Shown piece after piece: positions 13,824-19,902 of a DNA stretch of 64,000 nt. The notes under the pieces are model-generated. The model was given only the letters and a program-made list of their open reading frames with translations. It did no database searches and was not told the DNA's origin. Position 1 is the first letter of the stretch. Every line of letters begins with the position of its first letter. Source of the stretch: Blastochloris sulfoviridis (GTDB taxonomy: Bacteria; Pseudomonadota; Alphaproteobacteria; Rhizobiales; Xanthobacteraceae); the NCBI RefSeq assembly GCF_008630065.1, contig NZ_VWPL01000003.1:124001-188000 (forward strand), in the 5' to 3' direction. A program made the position numbers and the translations under genes.

Positions 13824-13921
13824 GACGGTTTCCGGCCCTCGACTGTGGGTGCAGCGCGGGATGATTGGCGCGCCTCGGGCGATCACGGTAAGAAGTGATT
13901 CACCAATTCGACAGGGCATTC

Positions 13922-15061
13922 ATGCGCACCGGCATCGCGCTTTCCGCGACGGCTCACCTGATTCTCGTGACCCTGACCGTGGTCCTCGCCGGGCCGGCGC
14001 CGTTCAATGTCGAGCCGGCCGAGGGAATCCTGGTCGACCTCGTGACGCCCGAGGAGGCGCAGGAGCAGCCGCCCGAGGAGACGGCGAAGGTCGACGAGCC
14101 GGAGAAGCCGCAGCTTCCCGAGATCGAGAAGACCAAGGAAGAGTTCGCCAAGGACGAGATGAAGAAGGAAGAAAAGGCGAAGGAAGAGAAGGCCAAGGAA
14201 GAGAAAATCCTGCCGGCGGCACAGGACCTGCTGCAGGATTTGCGGAAGGAGGCCCGGGCGGAGACGCCGAAGGAGGCTCCCAAGGAGGCGGCCAAGGAAG
14301 CCGCCAAGGAAACCGCGCAGGAGCCCTCCAAGGAGCCGGCCAGGGAAGCCTCCAAGGAACCCGAAAGGCAGCCCGAAAAGCAGCCCGAGCAGGCGCCCGC
14401 CAGGGACGCCGCCAAGGAGCCGGGCCAGGAAGCGTCCAACGAGGCATCAAAGGAGCCGGCGAAAGGGCCGCCTCCGCCTGCTGGACCGCCGCCACCATTG
14501 CCCCCGGTTCGGCCGCCGGAGCTTGCGCGCCCGGACAGCGCGCCGCCGGCGAGCCCGCCCGAGGCTGCGCCGCAGGACGCGCAGCCGGACGAGGCACCAC
14601 CCGCCGGGCCGGCTCTTGCCGGCATTCCCCTGCCGGCGATGGCGGAGGCGCCCACCGACAATGTCACGCCGCCGCTCGCCCCCGACCTGCTGATGGAGAT
14701 GGCGCGGCTCGGCAAGGCGAACGGGTTCGACGCCGTCGCCGAGGAGCAGGCGAAGCTCACGCCCGACGAGATCGCCGCCTTCAGGACGAGCGTGCAGAAA
14801 TGCTGGACGCGGCCGACCAATATTCCGGCCAATGCCAAGCTGCAGATGGTGATGCGCGTCTCCTTCAAGCCCGACGGCGCGCTGGCCGCCGATCCGATGC
14901 TGATCGCCGCCCCGGCCTCCAAGCTCGGCCCGGCCCTGGTGCGCGCCGCCCAGGCCGCCGTGAAGCGTTGCCAGCCCTATGCCGCGCTGCCGGCGGACAA
15001 GTACAAGGAATGGCGCGTGCTCGACCTGCGCTTCAGCCCGGCCGGCATCGTTGGAGGCTGA
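13922..15061 (+). CDS. TolA/TonB-like energy-transduction protein
   Basis: The 379-aa product has one N-terminal transmembrane segment (about 5-25) and a very charged periplasmic stalk of Lys-Glu-Ala-Pro repeats (about 50-180). A Pro-rich linker follows (to about 230), and then a globular C-terminal domain of about 100 residues with KCWTRP and a VSFKPDG strand, typical of TolA/TonB C-terminal domains. In family members this bridges inner and outer membranes. It stands alone, without tolQ, tolR, tolB, exbB or exbD. A GTG at 13895 is an alternative start. Confidence 0.78.
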   Translation: MRTGIALSATAHLILVTLTVVLAGPAPFNVEPAEGILVDLVTPEEAQEQPPEETAKVDEPEKPQLPEIEKTKEEFAKDEMKKEEKAKEEKAKEEKILPAAQDLLQDLRKEARAETPKEAPKEAAKEAAKETAQEPSKEPAREASKEPERQPEKQPEQAPARDAAKEPGQEASNEASKEPAKGPPPPAGPPPPLPPVRPPELARPDSAPPASPPEAAPQDAQPDEAPPAGPALAGIPLPAMAEAPTDNVTPPLAPDLLMEMARLGKANGFDAVAEEQAKLTPDEIAAFRTSVQKCWTRPTNIPANAKLQMVMRVSFKPDGALAADPMLIAAPASKLGPALVRAAQAAVKRCQPYAALPADKYKEWRVLDLRFSPAGIVGG

Positions 15062-15296: not shown

Positions 15297-17315
15297 ATGA
15301 CCGAGATCGTCTACGGCGTGTGGGACGGCATCATCTACGACAACCGCGCCGGCAGGTCTGCCGCCGACGATCGTCCGGTGCCCCCGACGCTTGCCAAACC
15401 TCCGACGCTTGCCAATTTCGAAAGCTTCGACAACGGCAACCGCATCCGCGCCTTCTTCGGCGACCGCGGCTTCTTCATCTTCGACGCCGGCGTCGGGCTG
15501 ATCGATGCGCTATGGCGCCAGATGGCGGAGGCCGCCGAGCAGAGTTGCGGCAAATGCACCCCGTGCCGGATGGGCACGGTGCTGGTGCGCGACGCGCTCG
15601 ACGCGCTGCGCCGCGGCAATGCGGCGAGGCTCGGCCTCGACGAGCTTGAGACGCTGGCCGAGCAGATGACCGCCACCTCGATGTGCGGCCTCGGCCAGAC
15701 CTGCGCCCGGCCGCTCTTGGCGGCGCTGCGCCATTTCCGCGACGTGGTGGAGGGCGAGCTGAAGCGCGGCCCGCGGCCGGAGCCGCACGGCCTCACCTAC
15801 ATGACCGCGCCGTGCATCGAGGCCTGCCCCTCGCGCATCAACGTGCCGCGCTACATCGACTTCATCCGCGACGGCAAGCCGGAGCATTCGCTCGGCGTCA
15901 TCTTGCAGAAATACCCGATGGCCGCGACCTGCGGCCGGGTGTGCGTGCGCTTTTGCGAAATGGCCTGCCGACGCAAGTTCGTCGACGAGGCGGTGGGCAT
16001 CAAGACGCTCAAGCGCTACGTCGCCGACCAGCAGAAGGGCGCCCACGCGCTGACCTTCGGCCGCGAGCTGATCGCCCATCCCCTGAGCCAGGACATGCGG
16101 GTGGCGGTGGTCGGTGCCGGCCCCGCGGGCCTGTCCTGCGCCTATCACCTGCTGCTGCACGGCTATCGCGTCGACATTCTGGAGGCGATGGGGGAAGCCG
16201 GCGGCATGGCGGCGATCGGCATTCCCTCCTACCGCCTGCCCAAGGACGTGCTGCGCTCGGAGACCGAGATCATCGCCGAGCTGGGCGGACGCTTCCTGTT
16301 CAACCACGCGCTCGGCCGCGACTTCTCGATCGACGATTTGTTCGCGCGCGGCTACCGCGCGGTGTTCCTGGCGCTGGGCTGCCAGCAGGGCAGCCGGCTC
16401 GGCGTCGCCGGCGAGGATCCGAGCCTCGCCGGCTACAAGCCCGGCATCGCCTTCCTGCTCGACGTCCACGACCATGTCGCCGGCACCCGCACCATCGAGC
16501 TTTCCGGCGACGTGGTGGTGGTGGGCGGCGGCAACGTGGCGATGGACTGCGCCCGCTCGGCCCTGCGCATGGGTGCCGACACCGTGCACGTCGTCTATCG
16601 CCGCACCCGCGAGGACATGCCCGCCGACGCCGACGAGGTGGCCGCCGCCGAAGCCGAGGGCATCATCTTCCACTATCTCGCCAATCCGGTGCGGATCGTC
16701 GCCGAGGGCGGGCGCATCACCGGCGTCGAGTTGATCGCGATGCGCCAGACGGCGCCCGACGGCCGCGGGCGCCGCAATGTCGAGGCCGCGCCCGGCACCG
16801 AGACGGTCCTGCCCTGCACGACCCTGATCGCCGCCATCGGCCAGCAGATCAACCGAGACGTGCTGAAACCCGAGGACGGCATCGCTCTCGACCGCTGGAA
16901 CTGCATCGCGGTCGATCCCGTCGATCTCGCCACCTCGCGCCCCGGCGTGTTCGCCGGCGGCGACTGCGCGTCGGGCCCCTCGACCCTGATCCACGCCATG
17001 GCCAATGGCCTCAAGGCCACCCGCAGCATCGATGACTGGATCCGGCTGGGCTATGTGCGCTTCCGGCCGCGCTCGCGCATGCGCGCCCTGCTCAACGACA
17101 ACCGGATGCTGGCCGACGACGCCGTCGAGGTGCCGGTCAAGCCGCAGTACCGCGTCCACCACCCCGAGCTCGACCCCAATGTGCGCACGCAGATGTTCGA
17201 GGAGGTGGAGCAGACCATCAGCGCCGAGGAGGCCTATCGCGAGGCCAAGCGCTGCATGCGCTGCTACCGCATCTATTCGGTGATCACCGAGCAGCCGATC
17301 CCCGAGGGAGCATGA
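15297..17315 (+). CDS. NuoF-C-terminal/GltD-type NAD(P)H flavoprotein, electron partner of [FeFe] hydrogenase
   Basis: The 672-aa protein fuses two parts. Residues about 60-155 match only the C-terminal 4Fe-4S domain of NuoF (SCGKCTPCRMG with Cys84, Cys87, Cys90, and Cys130). From about 165 on it follows glutamate synthase small subunit: a cysteine-rich two-cluster domain (Cys173, Cys177, Cys212, Cys216, Cys220, Cys224), then FAD (VVGAGPAG at 271) and nucleotide (VVVVGGGNVAMD) Rossmann domains. The VVYRRTREDMPA stretch is typical of NADPH-using GltD. The NADH/FMN domain of NuoF is absent. It overlaps hydA as ATGA, so it probably passes electrons between NAD(P)H and the hydrogenase. Confidence 0.88.
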   Translation: MTEIVYGVWDGIIYDNRAGRSAADDRPVPPTLAKPPTLANFESFDNGNRIRAFFGDRGFFIFDAGVGLIDALWRQMAEAAEQSCGKCTPCRMGTVLVRDALDALRRGNAARLGLDELETLAEQMTATSMCGLGQTCARPLLAALRHFRDVVEGELKRGPRPEPHGLTYMTAPCIEACPSRINVPRYIDFIRDGKPEHSLGVILQKYPMAATCGRVCVRFCEMACRRKFVDEAVGIKTLKRYVADQQKGAHALTFGRELIAHPLSQDMRVAVVGAGPAGLSCAYHLLLHGYRVDILEAMGEAGGMAAIGIPSYRLPKDVLRSETEIIAELGGRFLFNHALGRDFSIDDLFARGYRAVFLALGCQQGSRLGVAGEDPSLAGYKPGIAFLLDVHDHVAGTRTIELSGDVVVVGGGNVAMDCARSALRMGADTVHVVYRRTREDMPADADEVAAAEAEGIIFHYLANPVRIVAEGGRITGVELIAMRQTAPDGRGRRNVEAAPGTETVLPCTTLIAAIGQQINRDVLKPEDGIALDRWNCIAVDPVDLATSRPGVFAGGDCASGPSTLIHAMANGLKATRSIDDWIRLGYVRFRPRSRMRALLNDNRMLADDAVEVPVKPQYRVHHPELDPNVRTQMFEEVEQTISAEEAYREAKRCMRCYRIYSVITEQPIPEGA

Positions 17316-19174
17316 GAATGGCCGCGCAATTCCTGCCCCAGACCAGCCCCGGCGCCGAGGTGACCTATTTCGAGGCCACCATCAATGGCGCGCCGATCAC
17401 CGGCCGCTCGGACGAGACGATCCTCACCTGCGCCCGCCGCTACGGCGTCTATATCCCGACCCTGTGCGAACTCGCCGACATCGACCACACGCCGGGCACC
17501 TGCCGGGTGTGCCTGGTCGAGATCCGGACGGACGGCAGCGCCAAGACACACTTGGTGACGGCCTGCACCACGCCGATGCAGGCCGGACTCGAAATCCGCA
17601 CCCGCACCCCCGAGGTGCGCGAGAAGCAGCGCCTGCAGGTCGAGCTGCTGCTCGCCGATCACGACCAGGACTGCGCCACCTGCATCCGCCATGGCCGCTG
17701 CGACCTGCAGGACGTCGCCCAGTTCGTCGGCCTGCGCCAGAACCGCTTCGTCGACCCCGCCCGCGTGGCGATGCGGCCGATCGACGACTCCTCGCCGGCA
17801 TTGATCCGCAACATGAAGCGCTGCATCCGCTGCCAGCGCTGCATCGCCATGTGCCGCGACGGCCAGGGCATCGACGCGCTGATCCAGGTCGGCTACGGCC
17901 TCGACACCGCGGTCGGGCTGCGCCACGGCCTGACCCAGAAGAACTCGGCCTGCGTCACCTGCGGCCAGTGCGTCCTGGTGTGCCCGACCGGCGCGCTCGG
18001 CGAGCGCGACGAGACCGACCGCGCGCTCGACATGATGTACGATCCCGAGCTCGTCACCGTCGTCCAGTTTGCGCCGGCGGTGCGGGTCGGCTTCGGCGAG
18101 GAGTTCGGCCTGCCGCCCGGCACCAATGTCGAAGGCCAGATCATCACCGCGTTGCGCAAGCTCGGCGCCGACATCGTGCTCGACACCAATTTCGGCGCCG
18201 ACCTCGTCATCATGGAGGAAGGCACCGAGCTGTTGCATCGCCTGGCGCATCGGAAGCGCCCGACCTTCTCCTCGTGCTGTCCGGCCTGGGTCAATTTCGC
18301 CGAGCGGCATTGTCCCGACATCCTGCCGCTGCTCTCCACCACCAAGTCGCCGCAGCAGTGCGTGGGCACCCTCGCCAAGACCTATCTGCCGGAGAAGATG
18401 GGCATCGACCCTGCGCGGATCCGCGTCATCTCGATCATGCCGTGCACGGCGAAGAAGGACGAGATCGCGCGGCGCCAGCTCATCCATGACGGCGTGCCGG
18501 AGGTCGACGTGGTGCTGACCACCCGCGAGTTCGCGCGCCTCTTGCGCCGCGAGGGCATCGACCTCAAGACGCTGGAGCCGTCGACCTTCGACAACCCCTA
18601 TATGAGCGAATACACCGGGGCCGGCGCCATCTTCGGCACCACCGGCGGGGTGATGGAGGCGGCGGTGCGGACGATGTACTACATCGTCAATGGCCGCGAG
18701 CTTGAGACGGTGGAACTCCAGCAGTTGCGCGGCTTCGAGGGCGTGCGCACCGCCACCGTCGACCTCGGCGGCGCGGTCGGCGAGGTGAAGGTGGCGATGT
18801 GCCACGGCCTCAAGCCCACCCGCCAGATCGTCGAGGCGGTACGCGCCGGCACCGCCGATTTCGACTTCATCGAGATCATGGCCTGCCCCGGCGGCTGCGT
18901 CGATGGCGGCGGCTCGCTGCGCTCCAAGAAGCAGTATTTGCCGCATGCGCTCAAGCGCCGCGAGACGCTGTTCGGCATCGACCAGAAGCGCGCGCTGCGC
19001 CAGTCGCACAACAACCGGCAGGTCCAGGCGCTCTATCGCGACTTCCTGGGCGCGCCCAATTCGGAGAAGGCGCACGCTCTGCTGCACACCTGGTACACCG
19101 ACCGCAAGATCGAGATGGACCAGACCGTGCGCGAGATCTGGGCCGACATCCGGATGACGGGGAAGGTGTACTGA
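17312..19174 (+). CDS. hydA: [FeFe] hydrogenase catalytic subunit, M3-type, probable group A2
   Basis: The 620-aa soluble enzyme would interconvert H2 with protons and electrons. From the N-terminus there is a 2Fe-2S domain (Cys52, Cys64, Cys67, Cys85), a NuoG-type His-Cys3 cluster (His117, Cys121, Cys124, Cys130), two 4Fe-4S clusters (Cys171-181 and Cys214-224), then the H-cluster domain. All three H-cluster motifs are intact: SSCCPAW (Cys322 for proton transfer, Cys323 as ligand), IMPCTAKKDE (Cys378) and EIMACPGGCVDGGG (Cys525, Cys529). The C-terminus has the small-subunit-like segment. Pairing with a GltD-like protein matches the glutamate-synthase-linked A2 group. No maturase gene is nearby. 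Confidence 0.94.
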   Translation: MRMAAQFLPQTSPGAEVTYFEATINGAPITGRSDETILTCARRYGVYIPTLCELADIDHTPGTCRVCLVEIRTDGSAKTHLVTACTTPMQAGLEIRTRTPEVREKQRLQVELLLADHDQDCATCIRHGRCDLQDVAQFVGLRQNRFVDPARVAMRPIDDSSPALIRNMKRCIRCQRCIAMCRDGQGIDALIQVGYGLDTAVGLRHGLTQKNSACVTCGQCVLVCPTGALGERDETDRALDMMYDPELVTVVQFAPAVRVGFGEEFGLPPGTNVEGQIITALRKLGADIVLDTNFGADLVIMEEGTELLHRLAHRKRPTFSSCCPAWVNFAERHCPDILPLLSTTKSPQQCVGTLAKTYLPEKMGIDPARIRVISIMPCTAKKDEIARRQLIHDGVPEVDVVLTTREFARLLRREGIDLKTLEPSTFDNPYMSEYTGAGAIFGTTGGVMEAAVRTMYYIVNGRELETVELQQLRGFEGVRTATVDLGGAVGEVKVAMCHGLKPTRQIVEAVRAGTADFDFIEIMACPGGCVDGGGSLRSKKQYLPHALKRRETLFGIDQKRALRQSHNNRQVQALYRDFLGAPNSEKAHALLHTWYTDRKIEMDQTVREIWADIRMTGKVY

Positions 19175-19237: not shown

Positions 19238-19435
19238 CTATCCCGCCGTGGCGCCGAAGCCCGCGGCCTCGATCGCCTTGATCAGCGTCTCGGCCGGAAC
19301 GCCGGTGTCGGCCTCGACACGGCCGGAGGCGAGATCGACCGTCACCTTCGCGCCGGCATCTTCGCGCTTGATCAGCTTTTCCACGGTCGCGGCGCAGCCG
19401 CCGCAGGTCATGCCGGTCACGTTCAGCGTCACCAT
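19238..19435 (-). CDS. CopZ-like heavy-metal-associated domain protein
   Basis: The 65-aa single HMA domain has the copper-binding loop GMTCGGCAATVEK (Cys11, Cys14) and the usual beta-alpha-beta length. Family members carry Cu(I) to P-type ATPases or regulators in the cytoplasm. A GGAGAC Shine-Dalgarno precedes the ATG. No copA or cueR lies beside it. It converges with hydA, 63 bp away. Confidence 0.9.
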   Translation of the reverse strand: MVTLNVTGMTCGGCAATVEKLIKREDAGAKVTVDLASGRVEADTGVPAETLIKAIEAAGFGATAG

Positions 19436-19902
19436 CCTGATTGTCTCCGTCAATTCGGCTGCCCCTGCCGCACGGTCCACATATGGCACTGCACGCCATG
19501 CCGGGAAAGCGCAGGCGGCGCGCCCTGCCCGCCGGTCGGCTGCGAGGGCACGGCGCGCCGGCCCCTCCAGCGGCGGAACCGTGGACCGGAACACGAAAGC
19601 TTCACCGATCGTCCTTTTGTTGCGGCAGATCAGCCATGCAGGACGCGGCCCTTGACAGGCGCTACGCCACGCCGCCGGCCGGTCGGCATTCCTGTCCGCC
19701 GGCCAAAGCGCCTGCGTTTGCTCGGCCTCACGGCGATTTGCGCCGCCGTCGCGAGGCCTGCCGCGGCCCGACGAAATCGTCGCCCGCAGCATGGTATTGT
19801 GCACGCCGCTGAGGATTATGCCGAAACGTCATCGGGGGGTGGTAGCCCTCAGGCGTAGAATCGCCAATATTCCAGTCTGATTCGGTCACAGGATTGCCCG
19901 CC
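19436..19902. other. Gene-free divergent intergenic region
   Basis: These 467 bp separate the CopZ-like gene and the EAL-like gene, which diverge. I see no supported coding region, no repeat of families A or B, and no clear metal-regulator palindrome. Both promoters should lie here. Confidence 0.5.

Follow-up and report, generated by a model that had tools for sequence, protein, structure and literature searches.

How can a bacterium keep an [FeFe] hydrogenase when the genes for assembling its active site are missing? This question is raised by a two-gene operon in a stretch of 64,000 nucleotides from Blastochloris sulfoviridis (the window), in which the gene of a GltD-like flavoprotein, here called GltDn, precedes hydA, the gene of an M3-type [FeFe] hydrogenase. 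The maturases HydE, HydF and HydG are regarded as indispensable for [FeFe] hydrogenases. Sequence comparison of the operon with its relatives gives good support to the view that a hydrogenase-type protein is maintained without any of the three. Below, labels with G denote genomes of the family (G000 is the window's own genome), and labels with L denote the loci compared.

The absence of the maturases extends over the whole genome. G000 comprises 3,845,334 bases in 91 contigs, has a completeness of 100 and encodes two HydAs. In a profile search of this genome, HydG and HydE gave no match at E 0.001, and HydF gave only matches of the GTPase type, at most 78.5 bits against a cut-off of 325.55. 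The first-pass annotation had found no maturase in the 64 kb, which is correct for the window but understates the case, and its implied expectation of maturases elsewhere in the genome proved wrong for all three. Its remark that [FeFe] hydrogenases are uncommon agrees with the occurrence of HydA in 14 of the 296 genomes of the family. Across these 14, HydG gave no match at E 0.001, HydE none at 1e-20 and HydF none over the cut-off, with weak matches in 14. Besides G000, the 14 include five single-contig genomes (G044 and G074 of the window genus, G124, G169 and G198) and eight others: Rhodoplanes serenus, R. elegans, R. tepidamans, a Rhodoplanes metagenome-assembled genome (MAG), 'Rhodovulum sp. 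PH10', Xanthobacteraceae bacterium Astr-EGSB, Rhodopseudomonas palustris XCP and R. pentothenatexigens.

A profile scan for HydA relatives (alignment A1) gave 72 loci. HydG was sought in the genomes of 50 loci (49 readable, 19 over the cut-off) and of 20 more (12 over), which makes 31 of 69; HydF was sought in 25 relatives' genomes (6 over the cut-off), and HydE in those 25 together with the family's 14 (6 of 39 over). Among the relatives tested for HydE, HydF and HydG, the set is nearly all-or-none. All three exceed the cut-off in L052, L060 and L062, and L063, L067 and L089 have HydE and HydF with HydG not over the cut-off, a kind of gap which incomplete MAGs may show. None of the three is over the cut-off in 19 further genomes (L049, L068, L070, L071, L072, L073, L074, L075, L077, L079, L083, L085, L091, L092, L095, L099, L109, L112, L113), so that the maturase-less HydA genomes total 33. 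HydG alone was sought in L097 (no match at 1e-25) and in L106 (207 bits, under the cut-off).

The maturases might also be present and have been missed, either through assembly gaps or through strong divergence. The division of G000 into 91 contigs, the position of its second HydA near a contig end, and the gaps in L063, L067 and L089 would fit such an artefact. It is very improbable, being largely refuted by the five single-contig genomes, which agree for all three genes; missing assembly is rejected on the same ground. A diverged maturase should still be visible, because distant relatives (GTPases and radical S-adenosylmethionine (SAM) enzymes) were detected at low score in other genomes. A diverged HydF is rejected as well, since the low matches in the 14 genomes are limited to the GTPase part (within profile positions 1-200 of 392).

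The second HydA of G000 lies outside the window, on contig 18 (L011, 7193-9082 and 9101-11032), where it stands beside a NuoE-NuoF fusion and has the motif TSCSP. This second, HydABC-like [FeFe] hydrogenase is also found in G044 and G074, likewise without maturases. The HydE search additionally revealed no biotin-synthase-like radical SAM match in G000 at E 0.001, while 12 of 14 control genomes give one; judging from the sequence, the strain may lack BioB.

A genome without maturase genes is what the first-pass annotation regarded as telling against a hydrogenase. Such a genome was found, and the absence is not taken as proof of inactivity, because 34 HydAs from genomes without HydG share an invariant diiron pocket and because the same gene pair adjoins hydF or hydGEF in close homologues. 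The pocket was defined as 22 residues around the H-cluster of the hydrogenase CpI (four Cys ligands and 18 others), transferred through alignments to structures in the PDB. The 34 rows are HydAs from genomes without HydG, and the non-clade rows L049, L057, L069, L081 and L098 are excluded. In this set, none of the four Cys ligands varies, and neither do 17 of the 18 other residues of the pocket; in the rest of the H-domain, 88 of 273 positions are invariant (Fisher, 1.5e-7). The 32 maturase-bearing rows have 15 of 18 invariant pocket residues and 72 of 273 elsewhere in the H-domain, and the first Cys ligand is Ser in two of them. Six residues that serve only the diiron site or proton transfer, at the positions of CpI C299, E279, E282, S319, K358 and M497, are invariant in all 34 maturase-less rows.

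Substitution rates indicate that HydA is under purifying selection. The ratio of nonsynonymous to synonymous substitution (dN/dS) by NG86, a method unreliable at high GC content, ranges over 0.07-0.29 for seven HydA pairs without maturases; two pairs with maturases give 0.075 and 0.086, and three GltDn pairs 0.10-0.17. YN00 gave values for 3 of 12 pairs only. The selection on HydA is perhaps somewhat weaker without maturases. A pseudogene is rejected on the invariant pocket and the dN/dS values.

In the main rival explanation the enzyme has been repurposed: it would carry Fe-S clusters and flavin adenine dinucleotide (FAD), lack the diiron site, and act as an NAD(P)H-linked oxidoreductase whose substrate is either ferredoxin or some compound delivered by the importer described below. 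The lack of maturases, the clade-specific changes T320S and T379I/V, and dN/dS values of maturase-less pairs that reach above those of the maturase-bearing ones are consistent with it. Earlier authors, cited in PMC4967309, considered the maturase-less hydrogenases of R. rubrum and other alphaproteobacteria as probably inactive or of a different role. The rival explanation is somewhat unlikely; it gives no reason for the invariance in 34 rows of residues serving the diiron site or proton transfer only, nor for the exchange of place with hydGEF shown below.

In a tree of 79 HydAs built by a quick method, the maturase-less alphaproteobacterial proteins form mainly two clades. Clade I (10 rows) includes the window genus, Rhodoplanes, EGSB and a Geminicoccaceae MAG, and clade II (19 rows) includes Tropicimonas, Rhodobium, Cohaesibacter, Rhodovulum, Rhodobacter Har01 (maturase state unread) and Rhodopseudomonas; both have a support of 100 in the Shimodaira-Hasegawa-like approximate likelihood ratio test (SH-aLRT). 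Between them lie the maturase-bearing Pleomorphomonas, Oryzibacter, Rhizomicrobium and others. The number of maturase losses is unsure because 19 of the 76 inner forks are open. The tree also answers the concern of the first-pass annotation that the protein might group with NuoG or Narf: it falls with the GltD-linked HydAs, 32 neighbour rows of which come from genomes with HydG above the cut-off. A Bipolaricaulota protein of 998 amino acids (L114, 2801-5794) combines HydA-like Fe-S and GltD-like domains, and the H-domain is not among its matches.

The genes beside GltDn-HydA are of two types: hydF or hydG-hydE-hydF in some relatives, and an ATP-binding cassette (ABC) importer in others. hydF lies within the flank in L062, L063, L065, L067, L082, L086, L088, L090 and L100, the last having the order GltDn-HydA-HydG-HydE-HydF with all three maturases over the cut-off. 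The importer was traced by three parts, an NMT1/SsuA-like binding protein, a BPD_transp_1 permease and an ABC_tran ATPase, none of which reached an NCBIfam cut-off. In clade II, the binding protein and the permease are present in 19 of 19 loci and the ATPase in 18. All three parts stand beside hydA in L109, the binding protein and permease in L044 and L068, and the binding protein alone in G074 (L029). By similarity, the Desulfobacterota MAGs L091, L092, L095, L097 and L106 have a binding protein (only 36-68 bits) and an ATPase, and a permease is recognised in L095 and L097. Oryzibacter (L059) has no importer parts, and hydF and the binding protein occur together in no locus of the flank comparison. 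In L070, L078 and L113 the binding-protein gene begins about 15-40 bases past the hydA stop on the same strand. An example of place exchange is provided by two Desulfobacula MAGs whose HydAs are 84% identical: hydA is followed by the binding protein and ATPase in L092, and by hydG-hydE-hydF in L100. A TonB-dependent receptor was found in L033, which is the same place as L044, and a receptor plug domain in L097, cut by the locus end. A further receptor, suspected from gene length upstream in Rhodoplanes, is rejected: the four that were tested matched GDSL-lipase weakly in Pfam.

The association between importer and maturases was counted in 65 HydA rows with both traits known. The importer is adjacent in 36 rows, 27 of them without maturases and 9 with (all Pleomorphomonas), and non-adjacent in 29, where 6 lack maturases and 23 have them. 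Left out were L043, L049, L053, L096 and L103 (short flank), L076, and the small or fragmentary MAGs L057, L081 and L098, in which HydG absence is unreadable; L069, L094, L107 and L114 are not in the HydA tree. L063, L067 and L089 were counted as maturase-bearing despite HydG under the cut-off, and G074 as importer-adjacent with the binding protein only. The six rows with neither trait (L045, L046, L047, L048, G000, G044) all carry the binding protein elsewhere in the genome. Within the family, the 14 best binding-protein scores (370.9-508.5 bits, next genome 336.2) belong to exactly the 14 HydA genomes, which represent four genera and are far from 14 independent cases; three of them (G180, G074, G037) had contributed rows to the model, and scoring was limited to the seven best candidates of each genome. 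At 1e-25, 60 of the 296 genomes match. Taken together, operon structure and place exchange in two phyla support, on the level of sequence, that the importer has to do with the maturase-less hydrogenase; this association lies outside the window.

The binding protein has a predicted structure with a predicted local distance difference test score (pLDDT) of 93.3. Its nearest fold is 3hn0 (BDI_1369, no ligand in the title; Z 32.6), followed by PqqT, which binds pyrroloquinoline quinone (PQQ) (9b1u, 9b1v and 9ooz; Z 26.9-27.6 over 285-287 residues, at 18-19% identity), a Staphylococcus aureus protein with zinc (27.0), and CmpA, NrtA and SsuA (26.0-26.2). In a tree of 69 binding proteins, those of HydA-bearing genomes form mainly three groups: Desulfobacterota, L068 with L109 and the window genus (SH-aLRT 90), and the remaining 36 rows (SH-aLRT 100). 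HydA-less genomes account for three further groups, one of which also holds second copies from G000 and G074. The window genus keeps the binding protein, which adjoins hydA in one of its three genomes; on contig 11 of G000, a type-2 binding protein stands with a permease and an ATPase-like frame. The cluster in HydA-less genomes is often receptor-binding protein-permease-ATPase-NnrS (L186, L188, L189, L190, L191, L193), with Pfam confirming the TonB-dependent receptor in L189, a TonB gene in L186 and NnrS in both; NnrS also occurs in the HydA-bearing L044. Another importer branch (L176, L178, L192) lies near molybdenum genes resembling ModD, ModE, ModA and XdhC, as seen by eye from first residues. 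In L179-L183 (Rhodoplanes, PH10), a type-1 binding protein and permease stand, by eye, beside apparent riboflavin synthesis genes.

What could such an importer carry? The reading tentatively preferred here, though held with well under even confidence, is that the enzyme is a genuine hydrogenase which obtains its diiron site, or a precursor of that site, by uptake instead of making it. Users of vitamin B12 or PQQ that lack the synthesis genes scavenge these cofactors, and the H-cluster would be treated in a similar way. Host Fe-S machinery would insert the [4Fe-4S] part of the H-cluster. The importer would bring in the diiron part, or else a precursor or building block of that part, for insertion into apo-HydA. 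In the completed enzyme, NAD(P)H would be coupled to H2 by way of the GltD flavoprotein and then the HydA Fe-S chain. Uptake of the diiron site is chemically possible, because apo-HydA in living E. coli becomes active without maturases when the cells are supplied with synthetic [2Fe]adt, according to PMC6984386. The folds nearest to that of the importer's binding protein include PqqT, which itself binds a cofactor. The uptake reading would explain the invariant pocket, the loss of maturases and the place exchange together. A natural H-cluster salvage is advanced as an unlikely proposal: bacteria that have lost hydEFG would use the binding-protein importer, joined in some lineages by a TonB-dependent receptor, to bring in a diiron precursor in finished form (or the organic or organometallic part of one), and would mature their own [FeFe] hydrogenases with it.

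Several observations weigh against uptake. A free diiron precursor is not known to occur in nature. The position of CpI T356 is Ile or Val in 20 of the 34 maturase-less rows and Thr in 31 of the 32 maturase-bearing ones; HydA1 of 8a6t also has Ile there, and the window HydA keeps Thr (residue 379). In the structural comparison, PqqT appears near-tied with CmpA, NrtA, SsuA and the S. aureus protein, all within 2 Z units, and 3hn0 is nearer. The type-1 binding protein of G000 stands without a permease and away from hydA. Related importers beside NnrS and a TonB-dependent receptor in HydA-less genomes imply that the family has other uses, so that the substrate need not concern the H-cluster. Pleomorphomonas has both importer and maturases, with all three importer parts in each of the 9 loci whose flank is long enough. 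Among the six independent pairs on supported branches, 3-4 agree and none is opposite (p 0.125), and the association could be largely due to shared descent. The link between importer and hydrogenase is weakened by Pleomorphomonas and by relatedness. Pleomorphomonas oryzae is listed in PMC4967309 with two M3 hydrogenases, NuoE- and NuoF-like proteins, HydE, HydF and HydG, and its maturases may therefore serve another hydrogenase.

Some of these observations would suit a diiron site made in the cell by unnamed proteins without HydEFG, the importer serving something else. The intact pocket, the missing permease beside the type-1 binding protein in the window genus, and the second, HydABC-type HydA without maturases all agree with such a home-made site. 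It is quite unlikely, given that no candidate gene was found and that, within the loci compared, those without maturases have the importer as their chief common neighbour.

By its sequence marks, the window operon (Table 1) is classed as a GltD-linked, HydDB A2-like group A [FeFe] hydrogenase. The M3 type and the complete H-cluster cysteines reported by the first-pass annotation are borne out by the profile TIGR02512 ([FeFe] hydrogenase, group A; 507.9 bits, cut-off 405.95), by the Pfam layout (Fer2_4, NADH-G_4Fe-4S_3, Fe_hyd_lg_C, Fe_hyd_SSU) and by the three motifs. HydA scores 301.2 bits with PF02906 (cut-off 22.1) and 73.1 bits with PF02256 (cut-off 24), and stays below the cut-off of FeFe_hydrog_A6 (NADH-dependent, group A6) with 711 against 765 bits. 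The four Cys ligands and the proton-transfer residues are all present; by CpI numbering, motif L1 holds the proton-transfer Cys and the first cluster ligand. The nearest relatives of HydA by sequence in the PDB are HydA1 of bifurcating hydrogenases and CpI. The reported coupling is likewise confirmed, the two open reading frames overlapping by ATGA, and nearly all related loci have GltDn in front of HydA. The first gene is GltD-like, in agreement with that annotation, and a feature additional to that description is the start of GltDn: its first ~150 residues correspond to the C-terminal end of NuoF/HydB, with the flavin mononucleotide (FMN)/NADH domain of NuoF missing. The NADH_4Fe-4S domain is followed by Fer4_20 (170-247) and a GltD-type FAD/pyridine nucleotide domain (267-571).

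Table 1. Features of the GltDn-hydA operon in the window
Feature	Position	Strand	Remark
GltDn (672 aa)	15297..17315	+	NuoF-type Fe-S stub fused to Fer4_20 and GltD-type FAD/pyridine nucleotide domain
NADH_4Fe-4S domain (NuoF end) in GltDn, residues 71-152	15507..15752	+	PF10589, 82.3 bits
hydA, M3-type [FeFe] hydrogenase (620 aa)	17312..19174	+	start overlaps GltDn stop (ATGA)
H-cluster motif L1 SSCCPAW, residues 320-326	18269..18289	+	alignment to known hydrogenases
H-cluster motif L2 MPCTAKK, residues 376-382	18437..18457	+	alignment to known hydrogenases
H-cluster motif L3 ACPGGCVDGGG, residues 524-534	18881..18913	+	alignment to known hydrogenases

Upstream of the operon, a TolA/TonB-like frame at 13895-15061 (+) scores 30.3 bits with the TolA model (cut-off 59.45, not reached), and by eye similar frames stand at that place in G044 and G074. 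Downstream of hydA, the frame at 19238-19804 (-) shows by eye a heavy-metal-binding motif, MTCGGC. An FNR/FixK box ahead of the operon is rejected (best site 3 mismatches, chance 0.42); better sites occur in some relatives (Roseiarcus 1 mismatch, R. adriaticum and L109 2 mismatches). Sites like TTGATNNNNATCAA with at most 2 mismatches number 16 across the window against 6.4 expected, the one nearest the operon start being weak.

Several known systems resemble this operon. In PMC5037454, HydDB group A2 is described as glutamate synthase-linked (putative), with the role undetermined. Both share a group A HydA beside a GltD-type gene, but the A2 rule looks at the downstream neighbour of hydA and does not admit NuoF, whereas in the window operon the GltD gene precedes hydA and begins with a C-terminal stub of NuoF, and HydE, HydF and HydG are absent. 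The electron-bifurcating HydABC enzymes (7q4v, 8a6t) and the HydA of contig 18 are also M3 HydAs with NuoG-like Fe-S domains. The FMN-bearing HydB of HydABC is replaced in the window operon by the NuoF stub and GltD, and the contig 18 type, about 43% identical, has TSCSP instead of SCCP. Maturase-less HydAs in alphaproteobacteria are already published, and PMC4967309 adds that some (anaerobic) eukaryotes have lost the maturases. These cases and that of R. rubrum, whose enzyme may or may not be of the GltD-linked type, share HydA without HydEFG with the present one; the two clades, the pocket comparison and the importer are added here. A search of the open-access literature found no work on an importer beside an [FeFe] hydrogenase, and for Blastochloris with hydA its match concerned [NiFe] genes of Roseiflexus. 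The two kinds of neighbourhood are new here.

Without HydEFG, the enzyme persists, its active site almost unchanged, in two alphaproteobacterial clades with many members and in a set of Desulfobacterota MAGs. Either there is another route to the cofactor, or a protein that has all the sequence marks of a hydrogenase serves a different function. If the enzyme is repurposed, H2 metabolism predicted from HydA alone would be wrong for many purple bacteria. If uptake is true, microbes would share the diiron subcluster, or part of it, as a kind of 'vitamin'.

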